IMG/VR virus record: IMGVR_UViG_3300009502_002944
Span: 1 to 27,218 of that record
DNA length: 27,218 bases
Direction: 5' to 3' (one strand)
Origin: a virus
Shown: one piece after another, positions 997 to 20,944 of the stretch
Layout of the letters: each line of letters begins with the position of its first letter
Numbering within the stretch: the stretch's first letter is position 1
Translations under genes and position numbers: made by a program
Notes under the pieces: model-generated
The model's input: the letters and a program-made list of their open reading frames with translations, nothing else
Told to the model about the DNA's origin: nothing
Database searches by the model: none

Positions 997-3345
997 ATGG
1001 CGGTAGTAAGAACCTATGACTATCACGACGACCGTGGAATTTTGGTCTACCAAGTATGCCGCACGGAACCAAAAGGATTTTTTCAACGCCGCCCCGGAGC
1101 GGATCATAAGGAGTGGATCAACGGCGTACCCGCCAACATCCGGACCATATTTCGACTCCCTCAGCTAGTCGCCTCCCCAGAAGGCAAAACGATTTACATC
1201 ACCGAAGGTGAAAAGGACGTGCTAGCTATTGTTGACCGGGGGAACTACGTAGCCACCTGCAATACATGCGGCGCTGGAAAATGGCCACACGACCACGACC
1301 ACTATTTTGAGAATCACCCTGTAATCATCATCGCCGACAAGGACGAGCCCGGACGGAAACACGCCCGCAACGTGGCAGAAGGCATCGCACTGGCAAAGGC
1401 CAAAAGTGTAAAGATCATTGAAGTACCGGGAGCGGGAAAGGATGCGACCGATTTTCTAGAAGCCGGGGGGACCATCGACGAGCTAGACGCCCTAGCCGCC
1501 GCCACCCCCGAGTATATCCCCACACCCAAACCGCTAGAACTGCCAGACGTGCCCGACATATTAGACACCGCAACGCCGGAGGCCACGACAGCCAAGGCCA
1601 TAATCCCACGACCCGCCGCCAAGGCCGCACCCGCACCCAGCAGCCCGGAAAACCAAAACCTCGAAAGCACTTGGCAAAACATACTCTTAAAAACCATGGC
1701 CACCCAAAAAGGCACGGGATGGATGGGAAAATGTCCAGCCCATAACGACGGCAAAGCCTCGTTATCGCTTGCTCGGGGAGAAGACGGGCGAATCCTAATG
1801 AAGTGTTTCGCAGGATGCGAGTTTGCGGAGATAACGAAAGCCCTGCAAATCGAATCATGCTCATGTTTCCCGCCCATCGCCAAACGGGGCACGCAGCCAC
1901 CGGAACCACCCGACGCCGAAACCCTTAACTACGCCCAATACTACCAGCCCAGAGAATGGCAGATAAACCGGGAGGCAGTGCCCGCAATCATTGCCACCGT
2001 CAATGATTTTCTTTGCGCAGAACTTCAGCAGGAACCTAGCATTGCCACCCTTGCCGCCTCATTATGGTGCGCCACGGCCATAATCGGAAAACGAGTAGCG
2101 TTTACCAATCGTGGAAATCGGTACTATTGCAATCTGTTTATGGCCATCCTCAGCCCATCGGGTGGAAATAAATCAGGCACGGCCGGAACCGTGGTAGATT
2201 TATTGGCGGAAGTATTGCCGAACGTGGGGGAGATATCTAGTACCACTCTCCCCGCATTTCTCGCCCGCTACGGTGATTCCATCGCCGGGGGAGCAACCGA
2301 CCGGGATCAAAGATTTAAGGAAATCAAAGAAAAACACTCCCTCAATTTGTCCGGTACACCGCTAGTTATTGACGAATTCCGAGCTTTCGTTATGGAAATG
2401 ATTCCGGAAAATGAAGCCACAAAAAACAGCCAAAAATTCTGCAAGCTAACGGAAAATCGTTTGGTGGACTCGGACACCGTGAGCCGTGGTTTGCGGTTAC
2501 TATTCGATCCGTGCGTTAATATGCTTGGACTCAGCCAGACGGACCCGTGGAATAACGAAATGAGATCGGCAGCTTGCCAAACTGGAGGCATAGCCGCCCG
2601 AATTCTCCCCGCCAATCCCGATATGCTTAAATTGGTTGGCTGGACCTGCAAGCCCGTTACACGTTACGAGGCCGTGGAAGCCCTGCAAAAACTAGCGGAT
2701 TATGTTTCCGCCCGATCCGATGTTAGCCAGAGAATTGGCGTAACTTTTGGGGGTGGGGATGACCCCCTGAAAACCGTCAAAGATTCCGCCGTGGCAGCCT
2801 ATCCGTATGTATCATATTTCGCCGAATCCCACCCCGATGAATGGTCGTTACTAGAAAGTAAAATTCTCATGCAATCCGCCAAGATCGGAGCAGTATTGGC
2901 CGTGGCAGATCAGGCAGCCCGAGCCGCACCTATGGACCCGTTTTCCACCGCACCAGACACCACAGTGGACGCCGCCCCATTTATGAAATGGGCTTGGACG
3001 TTTACCGGATTTTGTCACGTATCAAATACCTACCATTGCGTGAGAACGACCGAGCAATCCGTTTTGCAGGACCGCATGATTGACGCCATGAAACGACACC
3101 ACGGCATCGCCTCCCGCCGTGATCTTTGCCGAGCTATGAATCTGAAATCTTTTGAGGCACAACAGATCATTGATCTAATGCTACAAGACGGAATGATCGT
3201 ACCATGTAAGGACGGACGTAGGCAGGTTTTTCAGTTGCGACAAGAAACCGACACTTTGGATGCTTTTGGGGTAAAAGACCAAAAAGACTGTCACACGTCA
3301 TCTAAGGTTAATGACACATTTACCGACACTTTCCACAAGCTATAA
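997..3345 (+). CDS. Phage replication primase/helicase: Toprim, CHC2 zinc finger, DUF3987-like ATPase (permuted order)
   Basis: A 782-residue replication protein. Residues 1-60 match the segment that normally links zinc finger and Toprim (YxYxDxxGxLxYQVxR, FxQRRPG). Toprim: ITEGEKD (68-74) and IIIADKDEPGR (110-120), then KDATDFLEAGGT. After a Pro/Ala linker (~185-225) comes a CHC2-type zinc finger: C246-x2-H249, C270-x3-C274 with GWMGKCPAH before it. It is followed by an ATPase domain with an atypical P-loop SPSGGNKSGT (386-395) and Walker B LVIDE (456-460), then a C-terminal winged-helix-like part (~700-770). In known primases the zinc finger comes first; here it lies between Toprim and the ATPase. 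AGGA precedes the ATG. Presumably it primes and unwinds phage DNA. Family assignment is firm, precise activity inferred. Confidence 0.85.
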   Translation: MAVVRTYDYHDDRGILVYQVCRTEPKGFFQRRPGADHKEWINGVPANIRTIFRLPQLVASPEGKTIYITEGEKDVLAIVDRGNYVATCNTCGAGKWPHDHDHYFENHPVIIIADKDEPGRKHARNVAEGIALAKAKSVKIIEVPGAGKDATDFLEAGGTIDELDALAAATPEYIPTPKPLELPDVPDILDTATPEATTAKAIIPRPAAKAAPAPSSPENQNLESTWQNILLKTMATQKGTGWMGKCPAHNDGKASLSLARGEDGRILMKCFAGCEFAEITKALQIESCSCFPPIAKRGTQPPEPPDAETLNYAQYYQPREWQINREAVPAIIATVNDFLCAELQQEPSIATLAASLWCATAIIGKRVAFTNRGNRYYCNLFMAILSPSGGNKSGTAGTVVDLLAEVLPNVGEISSTTLPAFLARYGDSIAGGATDRDQRFKEIKEKHSLNLSGTPLVIDEFRAFVMEMIPENEATKNSQKFCKLTENRLVDSDTVSRGLRLLFDPCVNMLGLSQTDPWNNEMRSAACQTGGIAARILPANPDMLKLVGWTCKPVTRYEAVEALQKLADYVSARSDVSQRIGVTFGGGDDPLKTVKDSAVAAYPYVSYFAESHPDEWSLLESKILMQSAKIGAVLAVADQAARAAPMDPFSTAPDTTVDAAPFMKWAWTFTGFCHVSNTYHCVRTTEQSVLQDRMIDAMKRHHGIASRRDLCRAMNLKSFEAQQIIDLMLQDGMIVPCKDGRRQVFQLRQETDTLDAFGVKDQKDCHTSSKVNDTFTDTFHKL

Positions 3346-7535: not shown

Positions 7536-8261
7536 ATGAAAAACGCTAACACCATGAACACCACGGGACTAAAACAGCTAACCGGACTCAAACAAATGTG
7601 GATTGCCAAAGACAATTCCATTGACGCCACGGCATTAGCCGCAGGCAGCCCCGCCGAATTTGACGACGCCGCCATACAACAGACTCAGCCGCCCATTGAT
7701 ATTGTTTTGCGGAGTAACCCAACCAAACGGACTTTTCTAAATGCCATTTCCATCAAGGCCATAACCGAACATATCACCCGCCTACCATCGCCGGGGGAAA
7801 CCATTCACGGCGTAGTATCGGGGCGATACCCGCTATGGGCTTTCATTCCTGCAATCTTATCCATCACCGGGGACACCATCGCAGATTTACAGCTTGCAAC
7901 GCTCAGCTTTTCAACTGACAACGGCGCCGAACTAATTGACCTTTTGGACGCCAACAAAATCAAAGCGGTTACGCTGGCATGTTCGCATTACTTCCGGTAC
8001 ACCAACAAACACATTTATGATCCGATTGCCGCCGCCTTGAAACAGCGAGGCCAGAGAATCCGGGGGTTACGGACACACGCCAAGATCATAAATGCCAAGA
8101 TGCAAAATGGAACGTGTTACACCGTGGAATCATCCGCAAATTTGAAGTCCAGCCACAACCAAGAACAGTTTACGTTATCCAGTGACGCCGCATTATTTGA
8201 CTTCCACAAACAGTGGATAGAGAAAATGTACGGGGCCATCGGCACGAAGGACAGAGAATAA
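7536..8261 (+). CDS. Phospholipase D-like phage protein (single HKD-like motif)
   Basis: 241 residues from ATG 7536, chosen because GGGGGA (7526-7531) precedes it; the longer frame from TTG 7446 has no such site. The C-terminal half holds H181-A-K183, then after about 16 residues SSAN (199-202), then EQFTLSSDAALFDFHKQWI. This is the single PLD-like half motif (HxK...SxN...E) of a small family encoded near phage terminases. A single motif implies a dimer if catalytic. The enzymes it resembles cleave or transfer phosphodiesters, so a nuclease role is possible, but the substrate is unknown. Its stop overlaps the small terminase start (TAATG). Confidence 0.65.
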   Translation: MKNANTMNTTGLKQLTGLKQMWIAKDNSIDATALAAGSPAEFDDAAIQQTQPPIDIVLRSNPTKRTFLNAISIKAITEHITRLPSPGETIHGVVSGRYPLWAFIPAILSITGDTIADLQLATLSFSTDNGAELIDLLDANKIKAVTLACSHYFRYTNKHIYDPIAAALKQRGQRIRGLRTHAKIINAKMQNGTCYTVESSANLKSSHNQEQFTLSSDAALFDFHKQWIEKMYGAIGTKDRE

Positions 8262-8659
8262 TGAGAGGACCAAAACCACGGCCAAAACCTAGCACCACGG
8301 AGCAGACGCCACCAGCGCCGCCCGAGGAACTAACCGACGAAGCGAAAGCAGAGTGGGAGAGAATCACAAACATCTTGACACGCCAAAGAATCTGGAGTGA
8401 AGCGGATCAGGCCGCACTAATCATTTATTGCACGAGTTATGCCGATTACAGACACGCCAGCAAAATGGTACGGGAAAACGGCACCGTGATATTGAGCAAC
8501 TCGGGGACGCCGGTAAAAAATCCATATTGTTCGGTACAGCGGGATTGCTGGGAGAGAATCCGCCCATTGCTGGCAGAATTCGGCCTAAGCCCCAGCAGCC
8601 GGGCGAGATTGAAGTTAGATGACGGGGGAGCGGGGGACAGTGACGACGAATTCGATTAG
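8261..8659 (+). CDS. terS: Terminase small subunit, P27 family
   Basis: 132 residues starting at the ATG that overlaps the preceding stop. The N-terminal MRGPKPRPKP is the basic, Pro-rich start typical of the P27 family. It is followed by a helical core (LTDEAKAEWERITNIL, SEADQAALIIYCTSYADYRHA, VRENGTVI) and NPYCSVQRDCWERIRPLLAEFGLSPSSRARL, the canonical P27 C-terminal block. It recognises phage DNA and activates the large subunit for packaging. The end overlaps the large terminase gene by about 20 bases. Assignment is firm by motif and position. Confidence 0.9.
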   Translation: MRGPKPRPKPSTTEQTPPAPPEELTDEAKAEWERITNILTRQRIWSEADQAALIIYCTSYADYRHASKMVRENGTVILSNSGTPVKNPYCSVQRDCWERIRPLLAEFGLSPSSRARLKLDDGGAGDSDDEFD

Positions 8660-10226
8660 CACCACCGATGCGGGATTCTATTTTGATGAGGCCGCAGCGG
8701 ATCGGGTTTGCAGGTTTTTTGAATCCCGCCTTACACACTTTGAAGGCCGATGGGCAGGCAAAGCGTTTATCTTGCTGGACTGGCAGCGCCAGATTCTTAG
8801 AGATGTTTTCGGCTGGAAGCGAGCAGACGGCACCCGCCGCTATCGCACTGTTTACGTTGAGGTCCCGAGAAAAAACGGCAAGAGCATATTTGCGGCTGGC
8901 ATCGCACTTTATTTGCTGGCAGCCGATGGAGAGGCCGGGGCACAGGTCTATAGCGTAGCCGCAAACACTTCTCAGGCATCCATAACTTTCGATGCCGCCA
9001 AGAAAATGACGGGAGCAAATGCCGCACTGTCAAAACGTATCGACGTACAACGCTGGCATCTTGCCCACCCAAAATCAGGCAGCGTATACAAGGCATTATC
9101 CGGGGAAAATGTTGGCAGCCACGGGAAAAACACACACGGCCTAATCCTCGATGAATTCCACGAATGGACCAGCCCCGGAAGCCGTGAGCTTTTTTCAGCG
9201 CTCGTAACTTCTCAAGGCGCACGCAGCCAGCCGCTAACGATCATTATTACAACGGCCGGAAACACCAGCGACGACAGTATGTGTCTTGATTTTCACCACA
9301 AGGCCGAACGGCAGGCAGCGGGGGATTGTGCGGACGATACTTTTTATTCCGTGATCTTTTCCACGGCCAAACCGTGGGATGATGAGGCAGGATGGCAGGA
9401 GGCCAACCCGTCACTAGGCCATACCATAACCATTGACTACCTAAGAGCCGAGGCCGTGAAGGCCCGTGAATCCGCACAATATCAAAACGCTTTCCGCAGA
9501 TTATATTTGGACCAGTGGACCGAACAGACGACCCGGTGGTTATCGCTCGAAACGTGGGACGCATGCACGGCACACGTAGAGCCGCCAGCCGACACGCCCG
9601 CATACGTGGGTTTGGACTTGTCCACCACGTACGATTTAACGGCCGCCGTTTGGGTTTGGCCGATGGGTGACAAATGGCTAGTAGTCCCCCGCCTATATTG
9701 CCCCAACGCCACGGCACAGAAGCGATGGAAGGAAGACGGCACGCCGTTACCCCAGTGGATTGCCGATGGCTATGTGATCGGCACGGACAGGCCAACAATC
9801 GATTATGACCGCATAGAGGCCGACATCATCGCAGCCCAGCCGATCCAAGAATTAAGTTTCGACCCGTACAACGCCAGCAGCATAGTTAGCAGACTGGAAA
9901 AGAGCGGGATAGTAACGACGCCCACGTATCAGACTTTCCGGGGGATGAATGCGGCATGTAAAGAGTTAGAGCGCCGCCTCATTTCTGGCAGCATCATCAT
10001 TGCCGACAATCCCGCATATCGCTGGATGGCGCAAAATGTGGAAGTGGAAACCGATAGACATGGAAACATACGCCCGGTGAAGCCAAAACGGAAAGGCAGC
10101 TATGCGGGAACTCGGGGGGCCAGCATTGACGGCATAGTGGCGCTAGTGGTGGCGATATCCCGCCTGCAATTGATGGGCAATGCGCCGCCAGTGGAAGCCA
10201 ACGAAATCCAGATAGCAGTTTTTTGA
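8640..10226 (+). CDS. terL: Terminase large subunit
   Basis: 528 residues from GTG 8640, preceded by two GGGGGA runs (8624, 8632); ATG 8619 in frame is an alternative. N-terminal ATPase: EVPRKNGKS with Walker A-type residues 77-82 and HGLILDEFHEW with Walker B L170-D171-E172. C-terminal RNase H-like nuclease: YVGLDLSTTYDLTA (D326), SFDPYNAS (D408) and ASIDGIVAL (D497), the three acidic positions expected for metal-dependent DNA cleavage. This motor translocates DNA through the portal and cuts concatemers. Length and motifs fit the HK97-like Terminase_1 family. Confidence 0.95.
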   Translation: MTTNSISTTDAGFYFDEAAADRVCRFFESRLTHFEGRWAGKAFILLDWQRQILRDVFGWKRADGTRRYRTVYVEVPRKNGKSIFAAGIALYLLAADGEAGAQVYSVAANTSQASITFDAAKKMTGANAALSKRIDVQRWHLAHPKSGSVYKALSGENVGSHGKNTHGLILDEFHEWTSPGSRELFSALVTSQGARSQPLTIIITTAGNTSDDSMCLDFHHKAERQAAGDCADDTFYSVIFSTAKPWDDEAGWQEANPSLGHTITIDYLRAEAVKARESAQYQNAFRRLYLDQWTEQTTRWLSLETWDACTAHVEPPADTPAYVGLDLSTTYDLTAAVWVWPMGDKWLVVPRLYCPNATAQKRWKEDGTPLPQWIADGYVIGTDRPTIDYDRIEADIIAAQPIQELSFDPYNASSIVSRLEKSGIVTTPTYQTFRGMNAACKELERRLISGSIIIADNPAYRWMAQNVEVETDRHGNIRPVKPKRKGSYAGTRGASIDGIVALVVAISRLQLMGNAPPVEANEIQIAVF

Positions 10227-10443: not shown

Positions 10444-12213
10444 TTGACCGCCGAAAATGTAACGACAGTAACCAGCGACCATATCGACCCCGCCACGTTG
10501 GACACGCAGGCCAAAAGCGGAGGCAGCACGCCAGCCGTGCAAATTTTTACGATTAACGGGATGCCCAACGTAGACCCGCTAACACTTGGCAGCGCCAACA
10601 CACCGATTAACGAACATAACGCATTGAGTATCCCGGCGTACTATTCCGGATGCCGGTTTATCTCGGAGACTATCGGAGCATTGCCGAAACATGTTTACCA
10701 GAAGACCGCCAACGGGCCAAAACGGCTGGACTCTCACACCGCAGAATGGACCTTGAACAGCGAGCCCAACGAACTACAAACGCCTAGCGTTTTTTGGTCC
10801 ACATTTCTATTGCACGCCGTGAATTGGAGCAATGCCTATGCAGCTTTGAAAATGATCGGCGTGGAAGACCCACAATTGTTTTTGCTTCCACCGGATCGGG
10901 TTACGCCGTTTCGTTTCAACGGCCAACAATGGTATGCCTATGATTTGGGCCAAACGCCCAACGCCAATCCCAACAGCCGCTATCTCATCTTCGCCGCCGC
11001 CGAAATGATCCATCTTCCTGCATTGTCTTTTGACGGCATCGCCGGGATGCCAATGGTTAAAATGATGGCCGGGACGCTCAGGACCACCAAAAACACCGAG
11101 GCATATATATCGCAATACTACGGCCAAGGTGGTCTTTTGGGTGGCGTAGTGGAATCAGACAAGCCGCTTACGAAGGAACAGGTTCAAGAATATGGCGATG
11201 TAATCACCAATAAATTCAGTGGCGTTGATAAGGCTCATAAGTGGCTGGTACTTGGCAACGGCGCAAAGGCCAAAACCTTGAGCCCCGATGTTGACACCGC
11301 CCAAATCAGTGAGAACCGGCAATTTGGCGTAACCGAAATTTGCCGGATGCTACGAATTCCGCCGCATCTTTTGTACGAACTCGGACGGGCAACGTGGGCA
11401 AATATCGAATCACTCGGAATTGAAGTGGTTAAATACACGTTATCAAATTGGATTACACCGCTTGAGCAGGAATTGACCCGCAAACTTCTGACAAGGCAGG
11501 AGCGGAAAGCCGGATGCTACATCCGGTTTGATACCAGCGCTCTAATGAGAGGCGACCATCAGGCCCAGATAGATGCCGCCGTCAAACGGACACAGAACGG
11601 ACTTACAACGCCCGATGAAGAGCGCAGCAACTGGGAATTGCCGCCGTACGCCGATGGCATAGGCAGCCGCCCGAGAGTACCGGCAAACACCGTAGGACTT
11701 GGCAACGACACCGCCGCAGAGGCCGTGCCCGGACTGCCAGCCGCCGCACCAGCAGCGCCGCCAGCCAAACAACCAGCCACACCGCCCGCCGATGTAGAAG
11801 GTAGTGACGATCTAGCAGCCGTGAAACCGGAGGCCGAGGCTTTCGCCACGAAGGAACATCTTAAACTAAGCCACTTTGAAGCGATGATAGACGACGCCGC
11901 CAGCCGGGTACATTCAAAGGCCGCAAAGGCCACAGAGGCAGCCCAAAAGAAGCACAAAGACAACCCGCAAGGCTGGACCGCTTGGGCCAATGTCTTCCAA
12001 AATGAAATGACCCACTACGCCGCCGTAGCCGTGGGGCCAATCTTCCAAACCTACGCAAATCTCAGCGGAAAAGATACTACCGGCATGGCCGACAAATGCG
12101 GGGGGACGTACGGCCGACAGCTAGGCCAGCATCTTATGGCCATCGGCCACGGGCAGGAATCCACGGCACCAGATTTGAAGAAAGTAGTAATGTCTCACGG
12201 GGGAACAGAATGA
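10444..12213 (+). CDS. Portal protein, HK97 family
   Basis: 589 residues, TTG start supported by GGGGGGA (10431-10437) six bases upstream. The core (~60-430) has the HK97-portal pattern: YYSGCRFISETIGALPKHVY, LNSEPNELQTPSVFW, NAYAALKM, GLLGGVVESD, ITEICRMLRIPPHLL-type segment (GVTEICRMLRIPPHLLYEL) and LTRKLLTRQE. It forms the twelve-subunit ring through which terminase packages DNA. The tail (~430-589) is unusual: a Pro/Ala-rich linker, then a helical domain (KLSHFEAMIDDAASRVHSKA). Such extensions vary between phages. The stop overlaps the protease start as ATGA. Confidence 0.92.
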   Translation: MTAENVTTVTSDHIDPATLDTQAKSGGSTPAVQIFTINGMPNVDPLTLGSANTPINEHNALSIPAYYSGCRFISETIGALPKHVYQKTANGPKRLDSHTAEWTLNSEPNELQTPSVFWSTFLLHAVNWSNAYAALKMIGVEDPQLFLLPPDRVTPFRFNGQQWYAYDLGQTPNANPNSRYLIFAAAEMIHLPALSFDGIAGMPMVKMMAGTLRTTKNTEAYISQYYGQGGLLGGVVESDKPLTKEQVQEYGDVITNKFSGVDKAHKWLVLGNGAKAKTLSPDVDTAQISENRQFGVTEICRMLRIPPHLLYELGRATWANIESLGIEVVKYTLSNWITPLEQELTRKLLTRQERKAGCYIRFDTSALMRGDHQAQIDAAVKRTQNGLTTPDEERSNWELPPYADGIGSRPRVPANTVGLGNDTAAEAVPGLPAAAPAAPPAKQPATPPADVEGSDDLAAVKPEAEAFATKEHLKLSHFEAMIDDAASRVHSKAAKATEAAQKKHKDNPQGWTAWANVFQNEMTHYAAVAVGPIFQTYANLSGKDTTGMADKCGGTYGRQLGQHLMAIGHGQESTAPDLKKVVMSHGGTE

Positions 12214-12911
12214 CGCACGCCAAAAACAACACAAGAGAGATTTTCACGAGCCGGGTTACGTTTGAGACGAAACCCCAGCCCGGTAAATCCTTGCCCACAC
12301 TTTGCGGCTATGCCATGACGTGGGGGACGCTTTCAGACGACCGGGGAGGCTACAAGGTTAGACTAAAGAATGGCAGCGCCAAGGCCATTCCCACCGGGCC
12401 AACGCTGGCACTCGCAAACCACGATTATTGCACGCCGCTTGCCAGCAATGCCAACGGTACATTGAGAATGACGGCCGACGCCACCGGGTTACGTTGCGAA
12501 ATCGACCTACCCGATACCACGTGGGCGCATGATCTTTGCGCCACAATCGACCATTTGAAAAATGACACTACCAGCGCTATGGGAATGTCTTTTGGCATGT
12601 TACCCAACGGGACGTATGCCGAGGTTAAAGAAGCGGGCCAAACAATCCGGGAATATTCCGCTTTTGAGTTTGACGAGGTTTCGACAACTGTAATACCGGC
12701 GTTTACGTCCACCACCATTGACGCCGCCGATGATGAGGAAGAAGAAGAAGAAGCCGAGCTAACCGCCAGCGAATCCAGCGACGAAGAAGAAAACGAACTG
12801 GCAGCCGTACCAGCCGCCCAACCCGTGGAGGCCGTACAGCCGCCCACACCCAACCGAAATAAATTATCCGTGGAAATAGAGGAACTTAAAGCGGGACTCT
12901 CGAATCAGTAA
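12210..12911 (+). CDS. HK97-type prohead protease
   Basis: 233 residues from ATG 12210, with GGGGGA (12199-12204) five bases before it. Serine protease of the S78 type that cleaves scaffold/capsid during head maturation. Visible motifs are TLCGYAMTWGTLSDDRGGY at the N-terminus, the catalytic-His segment ANHDY (H71), and the Ser segment TSAMGMSFGM (S122 or S127), followed by FDEVSTTVIPAF. The C-terminal third is a Glu/Asp run (DDEEEEEEAE) plus a Pro-rich tail, probably disordered. Capsid follows after 92 bases, as in HK97. Confidence 0.9.
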   Translation: MTHAKNNTREIFTSRVTFETKPQPGKSLPTLCGYAMTWGTLSDDRGGYKVRLKNGSAKAIPTGPTLALANHDYCTPLASNANGTLRMTADATGLRCEIDLPDTTWAHDLCATIDHLKNDTTSAMGMSFGMLPNGTYAEVKEAGQTIREYSAFEFDEVSTTVIPAFTSTTIDAADDEEEEEEAELTASESSDEEENELAAVPAAQPVEAVQPPTPNRNKLSVEIEELKAGLSNQ

Positions 12912-13003
12912 CTAGAGGCCAAAACCCGACCAGAGTAGCCGGATGACAGGCCAAAGAAAAAACAAACCAATACGACCGCCTATGGGGCGGGGGGACAAAC
13001 AAA

Positions 13004-14131
13004 ATGGACATCCGCACAGAAAAAATGGGCAAGCTTGCCGCAGACGTTAAGGTGATTTTCGAGCTTGCGAAGGCCGAAGGCCGTGAGCTTTCCGCCGATG
13101 AATACGCCAAGAAAGATTCGATGTTGGCCGAATTCAATGGCTTGAAAAAGACTTTGGACGCCGAAAAGCAGGCCGCAGAAATGCATTTCACCAGCGACGT
13201 TATCACCGGCAAGGCCGTTGAAGCGAAGCAGAACGAACGGGAAGAATTTAACGCTTTCCTTCGCAGTGGCGACCGTAGCCGCTACGTTATCACCACTGGA
13301 ACCGGTTCGGGCGCTTTGGTCCCGGTAGCCGTTTCTACGCCGGTTATCGTTCGGCGTGCATGGAATGCCTACCTTAACGCCGCCGTGATCGGTGGCCAGC
13401 CGGTTTTGGGTGGAACCAGCACCGAAACTCTCAGCCTCCCGGTTATGGACGACACGACCGTTAGCGGTCAGGCCGAAGCGGAAGACGCAACCAGCGACAC
13501 CGCCGCCGATCCAGTGACGACCAATATCAGTCTTGGCGCAAACCTCTATGATTCCAAAACCGTTTGGATTTCTAACACGCAGGCTCAGGCCGTGGGTTAC
13601 GATTTGGCCGGTTATGTACTGCCAATTTTGGACAAGCGTATTGAGCTTAGCCAAGGTGCGGCATGGCATACGAAGGCCGTGGCGCATGCCGTCAGCGGTA
13701 ACACCGTGACGACCGCCGCAACGAACGGCTTGACCTACGCCGAATTCATCAAATTTTATCACAAGATCGCCGTGCAATTCCGCACCGATGCCGTTTGGAT
13801 CATTTCGGATGGACTCTTGCAGATCCTCGAAAGCCTAACCGACACCTACGGCCGTCCGTTGCTTTCCGATCCACTCACGGAAGGTGCGGTTAAGACCTTG
13901 AAAGGCCGCCCCGTGGTTATCGACATCAATATGGCCGACCCCGCAGCGAATGCGATTTCCGGCATGATCGTTTCCGCCGCCTCGCTTCATCCTCGCATCA
14001 TCGAAAACCGCCGTGTAGCCGTTTATCAGAACGTGCCCACCGCCCCGGATCAGATGGGCTACCGTGAATTCGTCAATGGCGACTTCGACGTTAGCGCCGG
14101 AATGGCATTCTTGAAAGGTGCAGCCTCTTAA
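13004..14131 (+). CDS. Major capsid protein, HK97 fold
   Basis: 375 residues, ATG with GGGGGGA (12989-12995). Residues 1-~85 form a charged helical arm like the HK97 delta/scaffold region (LAAD...RELSADEYAKKDSMLAEFNGLKKTL). From ~95 the HK97-like core follows: TGSGALVPVAVSTPVI, NISLGANLYDSKTVWISNTQ, GYDLAGYVLPILDKRIELSQGAAWHT, AVWIISDGLLQILESLTD, GRPLLSDP, LKGRPVVIDINM. The arm would be cut off by the preceding protease. Codon choice differs from neighbours (CGT, GTT, GGT, few CTA/GTA), as expected for the most highly expressed gene. A terminator follows. Confidence 0.92.
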   Translation: MDIRTEKMGKLAADVKVIFELAKAEGRELSADEYAKKDSMLAEFNGLKKTLDAEKQAAEMHFTSDVITGKAVEAKQNEREEFNAFLRSGDRSRYVITTGTGSGALVPVAVSTPVIVRRAWNAYLNAAVIGGQPVLGGTSTETLSLPVMDDTTVSGQAEAEDATSDTAADPVTTNISLGANLYDSKTVWISNTQAQAVGYDLAGYVLPILDKRIELSQGAAWHTKAVAHAVSGNTVTTAATNGLTYAEFIKFYHKIAVQFRTDAVWIISDGLLQILESLTDTYGRPLLSDPLTEGAVKTLKGRPVVIDINMADPAANAISGMIVSAASLHPRIIENRRVAVYQNVPTAPDQMGYREFVNGDFDVSAGMAFLKGAAS

Positions 14132-14140
14132 TTGAGCTTG

Positions 14141-14160
14141 CATCTAGAAGCATCTAGAAG
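14141..14160 (+). repeat. Tandem CATCTAGAAG repeat
   Basis: Two exact head-to-tail copies of CATCTAGAAG between the capsid stop and its terminator. It is the same motif as the cluster at 3871-3980, and one more copy lies in the gap at 4901-4910. Confidence 0.6.
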
Positions 14161-14165
14161 ATTTC

Positions 14166-14199
14166 AAGGCCGTGGGGTATCTAAGCCTCACGGCCTTTT
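14166..14199 (+). terminator. Intrinsic terminator after capsid gene
   Basis: AAGGCCGTGGGG (14166-14177) pairs with CCTCACGGCCTT (14186-14197), twelve pairs with one G-U, around an 8-base loop, followed by TTTT overlapping the stem end. It closes the head operon right after the capsid gene, so capsid can be made in excess over the connector genes. Confidence 0.8.
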
Positions 14200-14220
14200 G
14201 TAATGGGGAACCAAAACACA

Positions 14221-14454
14221 ATGAACATCCGCATGTTACAAAACCTCAGCACCACCGAGGCCGTTTATCTGGCAGGCCAAATCTATTCACTGTCAGAAGA
14301 TCGGGCCAATCGCTGGATTGCCAGCCATCTAGCAGAAGCCGCCACACCACCTACGCCGCCCGTAGAGACGATGATAGCCAACGTATCGACCATGAAGGCC
14401 GACAACGCCAGCAAGAGCCGCAGACAGAAGCCAGCCAAACAGGAGGCCATATAA
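14221..14454 (+). CDS. Small protein consisting of the shared N-terminal module
   Basis: 77 residues. ATG 14221 is preferred over 14203 because GGGGAA lies about ten bases before it and 14203 is next to the terminator. Its first ~47 residues (MNIRMLQNLSTTEA, YLAGQIYSL, ANRWIASHLAEAATPP) match the N-termini of the fibre-like protein at 4971 and the glycosyltransferase at 15126. The tail is Lys/Arg-rich. Small proteins of this kind commonly sit between capsid and connector genes; their function is unknown. The stop overlaps the next ATG (TAATG). Confidence 0.65.
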   Translation: MNIRMLQNLSTTEAVYLAGQIYSLSEDRANRWIASHLAEAATPPTPPVETMIANVSTMKADNASKSRRQKPAKQEAI

Positions 14455-15014
14455 TGCAGTGGTCCATAACGACACCAGCCGCCACCTATCCCGTAACCGC
14501 CCAACAAGTGGCAGACCAAACCCGGTTAGATGATTTAACAGCGGAATCCGCTTGGGTAGCCGAGGCGATTGCCGACGCCACCGCCTACGCCGAAACCGAA
14601 ACGCAATTAAGCTTCATCACCCGCACAATCACCGCCCAATTTTGGCCGGAGAAAAGCGGCATTTTGCCCGAAGCGAATCCATTCCCGGCATACAGTTGCC
14701 TACCGCTTTTCCGGGGACCGCTTCAAAGCGTTACCAGCGTAAAAGACCTCCTCGGAAATGCAGTGAGTTATCAAACCCGAACCGTGGGCAACCTTGATTT
14801 TGTCCAGTTGAACGGATCAACAATCGGGCCGGTGCAAATCGTGTACGTGGCTGGATTCGGGGACACCGCCGCCGCCGTGCCCGCCGACATACGCCGGGGG
14901 ATTCTTGCCCACGTGGCGCACCTCTACATTCACCGGGAGGCCGACGCCGACAGCGTACCCAGCGGACTTGACCGCATCTATGGGCGATATTCGGCCGGTG
15001 GGGCCATCGGCTAG
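14454..15014 (+). CDS. Head-tail connector protein, gp6-like
   Basis: 186 residues, ATG with a perfect AGGAGG (14441-14446), one of the few canonical sites in this phage. Features of the HK97 gp6/DUF3199-type connector: YPVTAQQVADQTRLDD, the helical AWVAEAIADATAYAETET, ITRTITAQFWP, LFRGPLQSVTSVKDL, IVYVAGFGDTAAAVPADIRRGILAHVAHLYIHRE. It docks under the portal to form the first connector ring. The following gap (15015-15125) holds no gene that I can see. Confidence 0.85.
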   Translation: MQWSITTPAATYPVTAQQVADQTRLDDLTAESAWVAEAIADATAYAETETQLSFITRTITAQFWPEKSGILPEANPFPAYSCLPLFRGPLQSVTSVKDLLGNAVSYQTRTVGNLDFVQLNGSTIGPVQIVYVAGFGDTAAAVPADIRRGILAHVAHLYIHREADADSVPSGLDRIYGRYSAGGAIG

Positions 15015-15125
15015 GCCGAAATCCATCGACCTACCAGCCATCCGAGGCCGCAGGAGGCCCGCAAACGCCGTTTAATGCAGCCGAAAAAGCCAAAATTCAC
15101 CCAAAACGGCCTAAATTGAGAGGTT

Positions 15126-16139
15126 TTGACCATTTTCGTACGGATGACCACGAATCTAAGCACCATGGCGGGGATGTACCGGGCCGGGGAAGTTTACGAG
15201 GTAACGGACGCCATCGGCACCCACTGGATTAGATCGGGCATGGCCGAGTGGTCAGATATTCCACCCGCCTACATGCAGGAATTCTACGGCCGCCTCGACA
15301 CCACCCAGCCAAACACGCCACATATTTTCTTGCCATTTTGCGGAGAGTTTGGCCACCTGATTATTTCTCACATCCGCCAAGTACATCATCACACGGCCAA
15401 ACACAAAATAGTTTGCTGCAAGCCGGGGGAGCAAGTCTTATTCCCATCCGCAACCAGTTTCTTTTTTGACTGGAAAGACCCGATACCAGACGCCGAAAAG
15501 GCCGGGACAATCAGAGTATCGCCGTATGATCGCCCGCCGCTTCAATGGCCACTAATTCTAGAACGCTTCCCCGAGGCTATCCCAGTGAAGGCCGGGGGGA
15601 TGACGATGACACAAGAACATATCCCACTGTACCCGGAAAAACGCATACCATTTCAACCCCGCCGCCGTGGATTGAAGGCCGATATCTGTCTTGGCGTGAG
15701 AAGCCGGGAGTTTTGCCCAGAGAGAAACTTTCCAGCCAAATCATGGCAGATCATCGCCGACGCTATCACCACCCACGGCTATACGTTTGGCGTAGTGGGC
15801 AAACGGCCTACTAGCTTTGATCTAGCAGGCCAACAATGGCACAGTGGCGACTATGACACAGACGCCAGCATAGAAGCGATTCAAAATTGCCGCCTATGGT
15901 GTGGCACGGATACGGGAACCAGCCATCTAGCCGCCGCCATCGGCGTACCCATGATTATTTTCCGGGCAGATAACAGCACTACATTTATTGATCTTATGCG
16001 GACATTCAACAGCCCGCACCCGCTAACATTTTTGGCCGATTGCTGGAAACCCCAACCGATCATTGACGCCATTTTTGCAGGATTGGACAGCCTAAAACGT
16101 GAACAGAATACAGAGATTAAAATCGGGGTAACAGCATGA
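15126..16139 (+). CDS. Glycosyltransferase (GT9/heptosyltransferase-like) with shared phage N-terminal module
   Basis: 337 residues from TTG 15126. Residues ~1-47 are the module seen at 4971 and 14221 (NLST, YRAGEVYEV, THWIRSGMAEW). The rest is a GT-B type glycosyltransferase: IFLPFCGEFGHLIISHIRQV as N-terminal Rossmann start, NFPAKSWQIIADAI, FGVVGKRP, and CGTDTGTSHLAAAIGVPMIIF (T261-H267), the nucleotide-sugar-binding signature of ADP-heptose:LPS heptosyltransferases. It may glycosylate a virion protein or a host surface sugar. The start is unsure: the GAGAGG site is only two bases from TTG 15126 but eight from an in-frame ATT at 15132; ATG 15144 would cut the module. It lies between connector genes and overlaps the next gene as ATGA. 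Confidence 0.7.
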   Translation: MTIFVRMTTNLSTMAGMYRAGEVYEVTDAIGTHWIRSGMAEWSDIPPAYMQEFYGRLDTTQPNTPHIFLPFCGEFGHLIISHIRQVHHHTAKHKIVCCKPGEQVLFPSATSFFFDWKDPIPDAEKAGTIRVSPYDRPPLQWPLILERFPEAIPVKAGGMTMTQEHIPLYPEKRIPFQPRRRGLKADICLGVRSREFCPERNFPAKSWQIIADAITTHGYTFGVVGKRPTSFDLAGQQWHSGDYDTDASIEAIQNCRLWCGTDTGTSHLAAAIGVPMIIFRADNSTTFIDLMRTFNSPHPLTFLADCWKPQPIIDAIFAGLDSLKREQNTEIKIGVTA

Positions 16140-16480
16140 AAAATGCACGTGGTGCGGGGGAACGCCGCCACAAAGTAAGCATTATGAAACGCACCACCAC
16201 AGTAACCAATCTGGAAAGCACCGCCACGTACACCGCCGAGGCCGTCACCCGTTGGGCAGCCATCGAACCACTAACAGCCCGTGAGCTTTTGATTGCGCAA
16301 CAAAGCCAGATTTACAGCGAAGCCACCAACAAAATAACGTTTGGCTGGACAGCTAGTTTTGACGCCACGGCAAAAGACCAGATTAAGTTTGGCACCCGCA
16401 TCTATGAGATTGTTGGCAGCCCGACGAACGTAGGCGAGGCCAAACGACAGATAGAAGTTATGGCCGTGGAGAGAACCTAG
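16136..16480 (+). CDS. Head-tail adaptor / head closure protein
   Basis: 114 residues. Pattern of the SPP1 gp16 / HK97 gp7-type adaptor: an N-terminal AGERRHKVSIMKRTTT, then WAAIEPLTARELLIAQQSQIYSEATNKITFGW, and KFGTRIYEIVGSPTNVGEAKRQIEVMAVE. This beta-barrel ring closes the portal after packaging and receives the tail. Its ATG overlaps the glycosyltransferase stop. Assignment by motif and synteny. Confidence 0.8.
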   Translation: MKNARGAGERRHKVSIMKRTTTVTNLESTATYTAEAVTRWAAIEPLTARELLIAQQSQIYSEATNKITFGWTASFDATAKDQIKFGTRIYEIVGSPTNVGEAKRQIEVMAVERT

Positions 16481-16481
16481 C

Positions 16482-16970
16482 ATGGCACGGGAGCGGGGGA
16501 ATTTCAGCTTATGGTTTAAGCTTGACGGAATCGAGAAGCTAGAGAAACAACTCAAGGCGCTTGCCGATCCAAAGACAGCGAAAAAAATACAGCGTAGAGC
16601 CGCCACCGCCGCTATCCGCCCGATGCGAGCCGCTTGTAAAGAAGCTTGTCCGGTGGATACCGGCGCTTTGAAAAAGAGCATAGACAGCAAAGTGAGTGTT
16701 AAGAATCGTGGGGTATCGGCCATTGTTGGCGCAGACACCGCCGTGATGGAGGACGGCAAGAAAGGAGAGAAATCAGAATCAACAGTGAGAGCCGCCCGAG
16801 TATTACACCTTGTTTGCTTTGGTTTCATCGATCCGAGCGGGAAGGCCGTACCCGGCAATAACTTCTTGGAGCGTGGCTATCACATAACGATTGATCGCTG
16901 TCAGAAGATTTACGCCGACAAATTACGGGAAGGCTTGGAAAAAGCCGCAGACGAGGCCGGGGGGAAATAG
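16482..16970 (+). CDS. HK97 gp10-like tail component
   Basis: 162 residues, GGAGAGA before the ATG. Signature: LDGIEKLEKQLKAL, AATAAIRPMRAACKEACPVDTGALKKSI, and FLERGYH near the C-terminus, all typical of the HK97 gp10/minor tail (neck) family with its PVDTGxLxxSI core. It acts at the head-tail joining interface or tail terminator assembly. The next gene starts immediately after its stop. Confidence 0.85.
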   Translation: MARERGNFSLWFKLDGIEKLEKQLKALADPKTAKKIQRRAATAAIRPMRAACKEACPVDTGALKKSIDSKVSVKNRGVSAIVGADTAVMEDGKKGEKSESTVRAARVLHLVCFGFIDPSGKAVPGNNFLERGYHITIDRCQKIYADKLREGLEKAADEAGGK

Positions 16971-17375
16971 ATGAGCACAGAAAACGATATCGTGACACTG
17001 TTAAAAACCAACGGGACGCTAACCGCTATCCCGTTTCATTTGGCCACCGATCCACAATCCGTAGCCTTGCCGAAAATCACGATTGAAAAGATTGGGGAGC
17101 GCCGCCAGTACAGTAACGACGGGGACGCCGGATTATCGACGGCCAATTATCAGCTAAACGCCATCGCCGCCAGTATGAACGCCGCCAAGACGCTGGCACG
17201 GGCCATGAAATCCACGCTTGCCGCCAATATGTTGGCCACCTATGGCAGCACCCGATTTGCTGGGATTTTCATTGAGGCAGAAAAGGATATGGCCGCACCC
17301 ACAGAGGCCGGGATAGAGAAGCCCGCCCAGATCAGCATTTTGAGTATCCGGGCCAATTTCTACGATTCACTATGA
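16971..17375 (+). CDS. Tail completion / terminator protein, DUF3168-like
   Basis: 134 residues, ATG directly after the upstream stop with GGGGGGA (16959-16965). Pattern of gp17/DUF3168 tail terminator proteins: short N-terminal helix (DIVTLLKTNGTLTAIPFHLA), PKITIEKIGERRQYSNDGDAGLSTANYQLNAIAAS, NAAKTLARAMK, and a final beta strand (QISILSIRANFYDSL). It caps the tail tube at the head end. Position between gp10-like protein and tail tube supports the call. Confidence 0.78.
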   Translation: MSTENDIVTLLKTNGTLTAIPFHLATDPQSVALPKITIEKIGERRQYSNDGDAGLSTANYQLNAIAASMNAAKTLARAMKSTLAANMLATYGSTRFAGIFIEAEKDMAAPTEAGIEKPAQISILSIRANFYDSL

Positions 17376-17386
17376 GCTAGAAGGAA

Positions 17387-17409
17387 TTCCGGGGGGAAAT
17401 CCGGAACAG
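17387..17409 (+). repeat. Hairpin TTCCGG-CCGGAA-CAG, copy 2
   Basis: TTCCGG (17387-17392) and CCGGAA (17401-17406) with an 8-base loop, then CAG and ATAAATAAG. It corresponds to the element at 790-809 but has a longer loop. It lies in the leader of the tail-tube gene. Confidence 0.5.
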
Positions 17410-17415
17410 ATAAAT

Positions 17416-17433
17416 AAGAAACGTTTCTTTTTT
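17416..17433 (+). terminator. Weak hairpin with U-tract before tail-tube gene
   Basis: AAGAAACGTTTCTT is a perfect 14-base palindrome followed by four more T. The stem is short and AT-rich, so termination would be weak; it may instead mark a processing or promoter-proximal element. Confidence 0.35.
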
Positions 17434-17446
17434 GGGGGGACAAATA

Positions 17447-17878
17447 ATGTCCAACGCAACACTAGGATTTGGAAGCCAAATTTACAAAAAGGCTTCCGGT
17501 GATACGGACTTTGTGAAGATCGCACAATCCAAAGATTTGAAGTCGCCGGAAAGCGAAGTAGCCAAGGTGAAAATCACCAATAACGATTCGCCCACCAGCC
17601 CCGGACCTAGCCAAGAATACATTCCGGGGATGATTGATCCCGGTGACATGGAATTCGATTGGGTCTATGTTAAGGCCCAACAGAAAATCCTTTACGCCCA
17701 TTGGGCAGGCCGGGATATCGTCCAATTCAAAGAAGTGTTTCCGGACGGCAGCGGGTACACGTTTGGCGGATTCATTACGAAGGTTACCAACGAGAGCAAA
17801 ACCGAAGACGAGGCCATTTCCGGCAAGGTTTCAATCGCCTTGACCGCAGCCGCACAATTTTCAGACGCCTTGAGCTAA
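17447..17878 (+). CDS. Major tail (tube) protein
   Basis: 143 residues from ATG 17447, with GGGGGGA (17434-17440) six bases upstream; the TTG at 17432 would overlap that site. The fold signature is that of siphovirus tail-tube proteins: FGSQIYKKASGDTDFVKIAQSKDLKSP, SPTSPGPSQEYIPGMIDPGDMEFDW, and GYTFGGFITKVTNESKTEDEAISGKVSIALTA. Stacked hexamers build the tail. It stands right before the frameshifted chaperone pair, the canonical position. Confidence 0.88.
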   Translation: MSNATLGFGSQIYKKASGDTDFVKIAQSKDLKSPESEVAKVKITNNDSPTSPGPSQEYIPGMIDPGDMEFDWVYVKAQQKILYAHWAGRDIVQFKEVFPDGSGYTFGGFITKVTNESKTEDEAISGKVSIALTAAAQFSDALS

Positions 17879-17894
17879 CGGGGACGGGAATTAA

Positions 17895-18203
17895 ATGAAG
17901 ACTCTACTTTCCAAAGGCCGGAAGCGTTCGGAAATCGATATCGACGGGGACAAAATCATCCTGCAAGAGCTTTCACTAGCAGATAGTGCCGGTTTGAAGC
18001 AGCATGATACCGACGATGAGGCAGCCATAACGCTACGGCTTATCGTGGCCTCGATTATCGACGCAGACGGCAAGCGGGTTTACAGCAATACAGATATTCC
18101 CGCCTTGCGGGAAGCGTTGACGTTGACGACCTGCAAGGCCATCGGGGAAGCCATCGGACGGCTTAACGGTTTCGACGGGCCAAAACAAAGCCCAAAAGCC
18201 TAA
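17895..18203 (+). CDS. Tail assembly chaperone, short (G-like) form
   Basis: 102 residues, ATG with GGGGA upstream. Equivalent of lambda gpG: GDKIILQELSLADSAGL, AITLRLIVASIIDADGKRVY, ALTLTTCKAIGEAIGRLNGFDG. It binds the tape measure during tail assembly. The stop lies four bases after the slippery heptamer CCCAAAA (18191-18197), so most ribosomes finish here and a minority shift to -1. Confidence 0.85.
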   Translation: MKTLLSKGRKRSEIDIDGDKIILQELSLADSAGLKQHDTDDEAAITLRLIVASIIDADGKRVYSNTDIPALREALTLTTCKAIGEAIGRLNGFDGPKQSPKA

Positions 18204-18538
18204 CCGCTAACGAGCTTTTCCCGTTTCGACTTTGCGGTTTGCTGGGGATTGACCACCCGGACTACTTGGCGGAACGGCTAACCCCGAGGCAGTTAGCGGA
18301 TTGGGCCGACGTGTACGCCGCTGATCCGTGGGGGGAACAGCGGGCCGATATGCGGATGGCCAGAACCGTTTGGGCCATTTTCCAGAGCCCGAGGAAACAG
18401 CGGATCAACGAACGGGATTATCTGTTTACGTTTTCCGCCGCCGAAGCCGCCCCGCAGACGCCGGAAGAATATCAAAGCGACTACCGGGCCAAAGCCCACC
18501 GGATGTACGCCTTGCAAAACCAGAGATTCAAACGCTAA
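17895..18538 (+). CDS. Tail assembly chaperone, long (GT-like) form by -1 frameshift
   Basis: Predicted 214-residue product: the G-like protein up to the CCCAAAA heptamer, then reading continues in frame -1 through SLTANELFPFRLCGLLGIDH to the stop at 18538. The T part (LTPRQLADWADVYAADPWGEQRADMRMARTVWAIFQS) is typical of the second chaperone domain, with the PWG(x)3AD motif shared by many siphoviruses. The -1 frame has no good independent start (only a TTG at 18239). Low levels of this fusion recruit tube subunits to the tape measure. Confidence 0.82.
18191..18239 (+). other. Programmed -1 frameshift site and downstream stem
   Basis: CCCAAAA (18191-18197) fits X_XXY_YYZ exactly in the zero frame (C CCA AAA). 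AACCGC (18202-18207) pairs with GCGGTT (18234-18239), and inside it AACG (18209-18212) pairs with CGTT (18222-18225). The stem begins four bases after the heptamer. Confidence 0.8.
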
Positions 18539-18553
18539 CCGGGGGAACGGGCC

Positions 18554-20944
18554 ATTTCTAAAACACTCACAAATCTACACGTTGGACTCGGAGGCAGCGC
18601 CGCCGGTTTGGCCTCTATGTTTGCCGGAGCCGTGGGACAGGTCCACAGTTTCGGCGGCGCAATGGCCGAGGCCGGTAGCAAGCTAATGGAATGGGTGGGA
18701 GTGGGAGCCGCTATAGAAGTGGGACGGGCAGCCGTTGACCACTTGGCCGAATCCATTAAATCCGGTTTTGAGGTAGCGGAGAAAATCGAGAATGCCCAAA
18801 TTGCAATGACTGGCTTGGCCGGATCGGCAGAGAATGCCACGGCCATAATCACCCATTTGAAAAACCTATCCGTATCATCGGGACTTGGTTTCGACGAATT
18901 GACAGCCGCCACGAAAAAGCTAATGGCCATCGGCGTCAGTGCCGAGAAAATCGAGCCGCTAATCCGGAGTATCGGGGACGTGGCAGCCGGAACCGGGGCC
19001 AGCCTATCCGATATGGCCGAGGTTTTCGTTAAGGCCGAAGGCCGGGGAAGCATCACCGCCAAAGAGCTAAAGAGCTTGACGGCGCAAGGCATACCGATTG
19101 TGGCAGAACTTGCCCGCCAATTCGGGACCACCGCCGAAGGCGTAAAACAGTTAGCCGCTAACGGCCAAATCGGTTTCGCCCAACTTCAAAAAGCTTTTGA
19201 AAGTATGTCCGGGCCGGGAGGCCGTTTCGCTGGACTCATGGACCAACAGGCAAACACCGTAGGCGGGGTTTGGAAACGGATTGCAACCAGTATCGGATTC
19301 AGTAGCGCCGAAATCATCATGCAGCTAGAGGAGGCTTTTGATTTGCGAGGAATCCTGCAAAGCGTAATGACGGCCATTCCCGTTATCACCACGTACATAA
19401 CGAACGGCATCACACTGCTAACCCCATACCTGCAAATGGCGGAAGCTTGGATTTTCCGGGGACTTGGGGCAGTTTGGGACACGATCAAAGGACCATTGGC
19501 CACCGCCTTTAATTTCATCGCCGGAATCTTGCCAGCCATTCCCGATTTAATCGGATCAGCAATGGGTTATTGCTGGGAAATCATACAATCCGTTTGGGGT
19601 TCTATCTGGGGTTTCATCGGGCCGATTGTTACCGCCATTTATGACGTGATTGCCACGAACTGGGAGGCAATTGTAGAAACGACCGTGGGATTTGTTATGG
19701 CCGTGGTGAATGTTTTTGAATCTGTTTTCACCGCCTGTTATGGCATCGCCCAATCTATCTGGGATGGCATTGTAACGATTTGGAACGAAGCCACGGCCTT
19801 TATCACCGGCCGCACCGCCGACGCCGCCAACGCCAACGTTACCGCCTTTACCAGCATGTACGATATGGTTTCGTGGTTTGTGAATGGCCTCAAAGACCTT
19901 TTGAACGCCGCCGCTTTCACGCTTAACCACTGGCAGGACGCCGCCGAAATCGTTGGCCTTGAAGTGATGTTGGCATTTATCACGCTTGGCAATCAACTGG
20001 AATATGTTTTCACCACCGTGATTCCATACGCCATAAATTACGGCGTGGCGTACCTAAAAGATTTTGGGGGGATGACCACCACCATTATCAAAAACATTCT
20101 GGCAAACATCTTAATGTTTGTGGAATCGATTCCCGGACTTCTGACAGGAGAACTATCGTTCCGTGATGTAGTGGGCCAATTTGCGCCCATCACAGAAGCT
20201 TTCGCAAGCGAAATGAAGAAGCTACCAGCCATGGCAGCCAGAGTACCGGGCGATATGGAAAAGGCCATGACGGGGGAACTCAACCATCTAGAAGGAAAAT
20301 TCGCCGAAGGCTTGGGAGGCTATCTTAACGGAGCCGATGAAAAAGCCCATAACGCCGCCAAGAAGATAACCGACGCTTTGAACGCCGGATTAAATAACGT
20401 GAAACACCCCAAAGATTTGGGACTTGGCTTTTCTCACAAAGACCTAAACCCCGTTATCCGCCCGACCGTGAACAATGACGACCTACACGCCACTTTGCAC
20501 GTTGAGCTAAAACTAGGAAAATTGACCCGATGGGGATCGGCGCAAGCGTTAGCCCAGCAATCAGAAATAGCCAATCAGATACGTATGCCGCTTATGCCGG
20601 GAGTGAATCGCCCAACAAACGCACCGCCGACGAGGCCGGGAGCAACGCCCGCCAAGCCAGCGACAGCCACACCAGCTAACAGCAATGATCCAATGAATCT
20701 GGGATGGGATGAACCGACACCAAAGGCCATCGATCTAAATACTACACCATCGACGCTAGGAGACTGGGGGACGCCAGCCGCACCGGCCGCACCACGGCCA
20801 GCCGCAGCCATCGCACCAAAAGACGATAAGCCAGCAACCGGCAGTACATCACCACTAGAAAATATGGCCGCACTTATGGCCGAAATTCGCCGCTATATCG
20901 TCAAATGGGACTCTAACCCGCCACTGGCGGAAGTGAATATGTAA
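18554..20944 (+). CDS. Tail tape measure protein
   Basis: 796 residues if it starts at ATT 18554, 778 from the first canonical start (TTG 18608). ATT 18554 is preferred: GGGGGA (18541-18546) lies seven bases upstream, as for many genes here, and the extra 18 residues (SKTLTNLHVGLGGSAAG) are the usual N-terminus of tape measures. TMP core: VAEKIENAQIAMTGLAGSAENA, GVSAEKIEPLIRSIGDVAAGTGAS, GRGSITAKELKSLTAQGIPI. It continues with several hydrophobic segments (~260-420, many Trp) that could span membrane during DNA entry, and a Pro/Ala tail. It sets tail length; by the usual 1.5 Angstrom per residue the tail would be near 120 nm (inference). Confidence 0.88.
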   Translation: MSKTLTNLHVGLGGSAAGLASMFAGAVGQVHSFGGAMAEAGSKLMEWVGVGAAIEVGRAAVDHLAESIKSGFEVAEKIENAQIAMTGLAGSAENATAIITHLKNLSVSSGLGFDELTAATKKLMAIGVSAEKIEPLIRSIGDVAAGTGASLSDMAEVFVKAEGRGSITAKELKSLTAQGIPIVAELARQFGTTAEGVKQLAANGQIGFAQLQKAFESMSGPGGRFAGLMDQQANTVGGVWKRIATSIGFSSAEIIMQLEEAFDLRGILQSVMTAIPVITTYITNGITLLTPYLQMAEAWIFRGLGAVWDTIKGPLATAFNFIAGILPAIPDLIGSAMGYCWEIIQSVWGSIWGFIGPIVTAIYDVIATNWEAIVETTVGFVMAVVNVFESVFTACYGIAQSIWDGIVTIWNEATAFITGRTADAANANVTAFTSMYDMVSWFVNGLKDLLNAAAFTLNHWQDAAEIVGLEVMLAFITLGNQLEYVFTTVIPYAINYGVAYLKDFGGMTTTIIKNILANILMFVESIPGLLTGELSFRDVVGQFAPITEAFASEMKKLPAMAARVPGDMEKAMTGELNHLEGKFAEGLGGYLNGADEKAHNAAKKITDALNAGLNNVKHPKDLGLGFSHKDLNPVIRPTVNNDDLHATLHVELKLGKLTRWGSAQALAQQSEIANQIRMPLMPGVNRPTNAPPTRPGATPAKPATATPANSNDPMNLGWDEPTPKAIDLNTTPSTLGDWGTPAAPAAPRPAAAIAPKDDKPATGSTSPLENMAALMAEIRRYIVKWDSNPPLAEVNM

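Follow-up and report, generated by a model that had tools for sequence, protein, structure and literature searches.

The analysed DNA encodes a probable primase of the DnaG/T7 class in which the usual order of domains is swapped: the Toprim domain comes first, a CHC2-type zinc finger follows and an ATPase region closes the protein. This order is read directly from a single frame of 782 codons without internal stop (Table 1), and it is a real and rare rearrangement in a well-known enzyme class. The gene lies in the window, that is, the whole stretch of 27,218 nucleotides under analysis, which corresponds to G000:C87:95849-123066 on a contig of 124,486 bases. We estimate at roughly 70% the probability that its product is the prophage's own DnaG-type primase with a DUF3987-like ATPase, the finger standing between the two and reaching the Toprim site in cis or in trans.

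Table 1 Features of the window (positions on the 27,218-nucleotide stretch; residues of the 782-aa protein).
Feature	Residues and motifs	Positions	Strand
Permuted putative primase-helicase gene (Toprim, CHC2-type zinc finger, DUF3987-like ATPase, helical tail)	782 aa	997..3345	+
Linker motif (YxYxDxxGxLxYQVxR) and Toprim	1-173; EGEKD and DKDEPG intact	997..1515	+
Pro/Ala-rich linker, predicted mostly unstructured	174-227	1516..1677	+
CHC2-type zinc finger	228-296; C246, H249, C270, C274	1678..1884	+
DUF3987-like ATPase region	about 333 to end; Walker A-like SPSGGNKSGT	1993..3342	+
Terminase small and large subunits, same prophage		8213..10226	+
Portal, head maturation protease, major head protein, connectors, tape measure		10444..20944	+

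The ATG of the frame is preceded by AGGA, about 8 bases 5' of it. A mis-called start, or a finger encoded just upstream in another frame, was considered and rejected: between positions 700 and 1002 each of the three frames is broken by stops and the CxxH..CxxxC pattern is absent from all of them. The second, upstream finger against which the preliminary description had cautioned thus did not materialise. Its own reading of the gene, with the linker motif and Toprim at residues 1-160 and the finger behind them after a Pro/Ala linker, is what the frame contains, the N-terminal part extending to about residue 173. No close full-length homologue of the protein was found in the collections searched, and a search of the genome contigs with P0001 as query returned no relative.

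Pfam places Toprim_2 at residues 67-154, with 26.8 bits against a cut-off of 22.1. The relatives of the Toprim and of the finger were aligned separately, as A1 and A2. In A1 the linker and Toprim are 38-46% identical to their relatives and keep YxY..D..G, KxFxQRRP, EGEKD and DxD; the catalytic acids of the last two are invariant across the alignment. The conserved subdomain found before the Toprim in DnaG-type primases (YxYxDxxG, KxFxQRRP) is also present. When the input alignment includes Toprim rows, the model has a pLDDT of about 95 over residues 1-180 and matches T7 gp4 (6n9x_C, E = 2.0e-8) and E. coli DnaG (3b39/1dd9, E = 1.8e-7) in the PDB.

From residue 187 onward the pLDDT of the structure model is below 50; this low confidence between Toprim and finger is consistent with a flexible linker. 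The finger itself scores 12.5 bits with Zn_ribbon_DnaG (residues 236-274), below the Pfam cut-off of 24.9. Its assignment is nevertheless clear from close relatives: the four ligands are invariant in the 13 sequences of A2, at 38-51% identity, and tblastn against relatives gives E-values down to about 1e-11 to 1e-12. With finger rows in the alignment, residues 220-290 are modelled at a pLDDT of about 96, and the fold match to the zinc domain of B. stearothermophilus primase is weak (1d0q_A, E = 0.66). Toprim and finger thus keep their defining residues and are both predicted with high confidence, in agreement with the earlier view that the two parts are intact. On its catalytic domain and its four-ligand CHC2 finger, we infer that the protein is a DnaG-type (Toprim) primase. 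It is filed as a variant and not as a typical member, since we take the catalytic domain to define the family and the finger is not N-terminal.

The ATPase part is less sharply defined. DUF3987 (PF13148) is found in two stretches with 31.5 bits, over the cut-off of 27, and the best of them, residues 345-404, covers profile positions 1-61 of 364; the region matches DUF3987 only weakly. The DUF3987-like ATPase that had been proposed beside the finger thus passes the threshold, yet its structure model is unreliable: confidence in that region is too low for a RecA-like fold to be read from it. The Walker A-like motif had been called atypical, and it is: SPSGGNKSGT lacks the two glycines of the GxxxxGK[ST] pattern (positions 1 and 6), which makes the putative ATPase activity of the protein uncertain. 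At least one relative of the ATPase is likewise off-consensus (L226, IGPSGKARKTT), and two others, P0002 and L228, have a regular PPGVGKKT; the motif varies within this ATPase group. A second DUF3987 gene occurs elsewhere in the same genome (L001, G000:C56:14454-15503), with a strong, nearly full-length match of 195.9 bits.

An order of this kind could also arise if a normal finger-Toprim-ATPase gene had been joined wrongly during assembly. The genome is fragmented, at 97 contigs, and the only other copy, in IMG/VR (UViG_3300022555_003215, 29,277 bases), is 100% identical to the contig throughout, so that it probably derives from the same assembly and is not an independent check. Yet both junctions are in frame within the single 782-aa ORF. 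The gene contains no repeats of at least 14 bases, hence no obvious substrate for misassembly, and its base composition is continuous, with a GC of 0.547 in the Toprim, 0.507 in the finger and 0.51 in the ATPase. Together with a second protein of the same order in another genome (L351, below), these features make an artefact very improbable.

To place the order among relatives, sequences were drawn from the family to which the genome belongs, from 392 sampled genomes of its phylum, from named genomes, IMG/VR, phages and plasmids, and from further phylum samples entered via the relatives L230 (Verrucomicrobiota), L247 (Actinomadura) and L243 (Pseudomonas); domain order was called with profiles built from the collected relatives. 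Finger precedes Toprim in 246 distinct frames and follows it in one, L351, the window being excluded. The remainder comprises 109 frames with Toprim alone by profile, 53 with finger alone and one with a double Toprim. As the survey was sampled by similarity and not at random, with loci that are often cut, the ratio of about 1 in 250 is a rough frequency only. In the finger-first relatives the median gap from finger to Toprim is 22 aa. In many of the Toprim-alone frames the Toprim is preceded by a further module, which is a divergent finger or a zinc-less type with 'WHDHE..GGGVLDL'. Homologues of the same order, which had been named as support, therefore exist and are very rare; the contrary outcome, all homologues in the usual order, is excluded by L351. 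A literature search limited to open-licence papers found no report of a Toprim-then-finger order in Toprim primases.

Further candidates all proved to be finger-first when their frames were inspected. The Streptomyces plasmid hits H121/H122 had seemed swapped because a single tblastn alignment extended across the finger region; the Salinibacter plasmid proteins are annotated with a start just before the Toprim. Two other layouts occur among the loci: a single frame of L301, at 2289 (+), is Toprim-like at both 134-280 and 323-444, and the IMG/VR loci between L153 and L223 hold many short finger-only frames of about 145-190 aa, apparently stand-alone.

The one other swapped protein, L351, is encoded on a contig of 3.98 Mb (G842:C1) from the phylum sample of Actinomadura meyerae; its host apparently belongs to another phylum than that of the window. 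Counted from the first ATG it has 695 aa and, like the window protein, a Toprim, then a finger, then an ATPase. In contrast to the window protein, the ATPase is of the AAA_25 and not the DUF3987 type, with a regular Walker A (GQPGIGKT), and the linker is shorter. A single BLAST alignment joins the two proteins from Toprim through finger, at 31% identity. L351 is probably part of an integrated element, given its neighbours: genes for a tyrosine-type integrase, a transposase-like protein, a DNA methyltransferase and tRNA-Met. A tree of the Toprim domains leaves a shared origin of the two undecided (p-AU 0.616), and their differing ATPases point to an exchange of parts, whether from one origin or two. 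The intact motifs, the open frame and this second example support the first suggestion, that the window gene is a rearrangement and not a product of decay.

Among known systems the closest are the DnaG-type finger-Toprim primase-helicases of phages and plasmids (PHROG 239 and 6088, with T7 gp4 as a studied example), which share the linker motif, the Toprim motifs, the type of finger and the fusion to an ATPase; the best relatives are about 40-55% identical to the window protein per domain. They differ in that their finger is first, in 246 of 246 surveyed, whereas in the window protein it stands after the Toprim, on a longer linker. A protein of L226 (G405) has a related ATPase (hhalign, 96.9%) and looks, by eye, to be made of the same three domain types, but in the usual order of finger, Toprim-like domain and DUF3987. 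Outside the Toprim primases, PriCT-1 precedes the primase domain in the InversePrim family of AEPs (PMC5862659). There too an accessory domain lies on the opposite side of the catalytic domain compared with related families, but PriCT-1 and AEP are unrelated to the domains discussed here, and the accessory domain is in front there and behind in the window protein. The finger and the Toprim are also separable elsewhere, as in the split primase of L240 (Candidatus Andersenbacteria, frames 3248 and 3450, +), where a frame of 81 aa with the finger lies directly 5' of a Toprim-first frame of 724 aa. Similarly, primase zinc ribbons occur on their own, next to DnaG Toprims, in jumbo phages (PMC7824862).

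These comparisons bear on the origin of the gene. One protein, L148 (L148:3341-5626), combines a Prim-Pol (AEP) domain, a CHC2 finger and a D5 helicase. It was considered as a length match that had lost its Toprim, and rejected since it is a Prim-Pol protein. As in the window protein, its finger stands between the catalytic domain and the helicase, and this finger is 46% identical to that of the window; unlike in the window protein, the catalytic domain is archaeo-eukaryotic and not Toprim, and the helicase is D5 and not DUF3987. The same working enzyme could thus stem from the fusion of a Toprim-first protein with one made of finger and helicase, for instance through replacement of the AEP domain in a layout like that of L148, and not from movement of the finger within the gene. 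Toprim-first proteins without a finger do exist (L240, L256). Moreover, the similarity of relatives to the window in the Toprim is uncorrelated with that in the finger (r = -0.14), a value that is biased by selection of the relatives by either domain. Weighing against a fusion, the helicase of L148 is of another type, the survey identified no finger-DUF3987 protein without a Toprim, and a tree of so short a domain as the finger would not be reliable. We regard this fusion as a serious rival, tentative at about one chance in three; it concerns the origin and leaves the working model unchanged.

In DnaG-type primases template recognition falls to the zinc domain and the joining of nucleotides to the Toprim (PMC9198812), and the subunits of DnaG primase are described as acting mutually in trans (Corn et al. 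2005, as cited in PMC6163395). By its motifs and context, the Toprim domain of the window protein would make the primer, and the finger, like those of T7 gp4 and DnaG, would read the template. It may reach the catalytic site from the C-terminal side, over a flexible linker of about 50-80 residues; alternatively, it may act on the Toprim of the adjacent subunit within a ring. The DUF3987-like ATPase would be the presumed helicase, its helicase activity and ring assembly being assumed by this model.

It is also conceivable, though unlikely, that the finger no longer takes part in priming and has become an element by which the helicase binds or is loaded onto DNA, the Toprim being independent of it or not priming at all. 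The finger does adjoin the ATPase, in some relatives no CHC2 finger is recognised, and a form of T7 gp4 that lacks the finger retains helicase activity, albeit without primer synthesis (PMC9198812). Still, the window protein keeps the residues that are conserved in the fingers of finger-first primases, and the Toprim-only relatives mostly have another module before the Toprim, which suggests that this type of Toprim needs one.

The preferred reading, a priming finger placed behind its Toprim, touches on a mechanistic question: finger-first is the rule in DnaG- and T7-type primases, and the point at issue is which catalytic domain the finger serves, its own or that of a neighbour. A natural protein with the finger behind, on a long linker and adjacent to the helicase, offers a ready test of the effect of position, and of action in cis versus in trans. 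In a broader sense, it shows that mobile elements shuffle not just the content but also the order of their replication modules. More speculatively, and at somewhat less than even odds, mobile-element primases could have come to the Toprim-then-finger order on more than one occasion, with DUF3987 and with AAA_25 partners, as a small and undescribed architecture; the finger would then be able to serve priming from either side of the catalytic domain, as a template-reading module that can be placed freely and possibly acts mainly between subunits.

As to its surroundings, the region is read as the prophage of a tailed phage. Besides the packaging, head and tail genes of Table 1, the window holds an HNH endonuclease gene, and a host-like UbiA gene comes after the head and tail genes. 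To the left of the window, on contig C87, lie a host-like TatC gene and a gene for a Resolvase/Recombinase-domain protein (L055:13170-14903), a serine integrase that is likely the integrase of the prophage. No convincing attachment sites were found, an exact match of more than 14 bases being absent between the searched flanks. On the same left side of the prophage, the TatC gene is adjoined by a gene for an Imm1-family immunity protein (L055:10401-10811).
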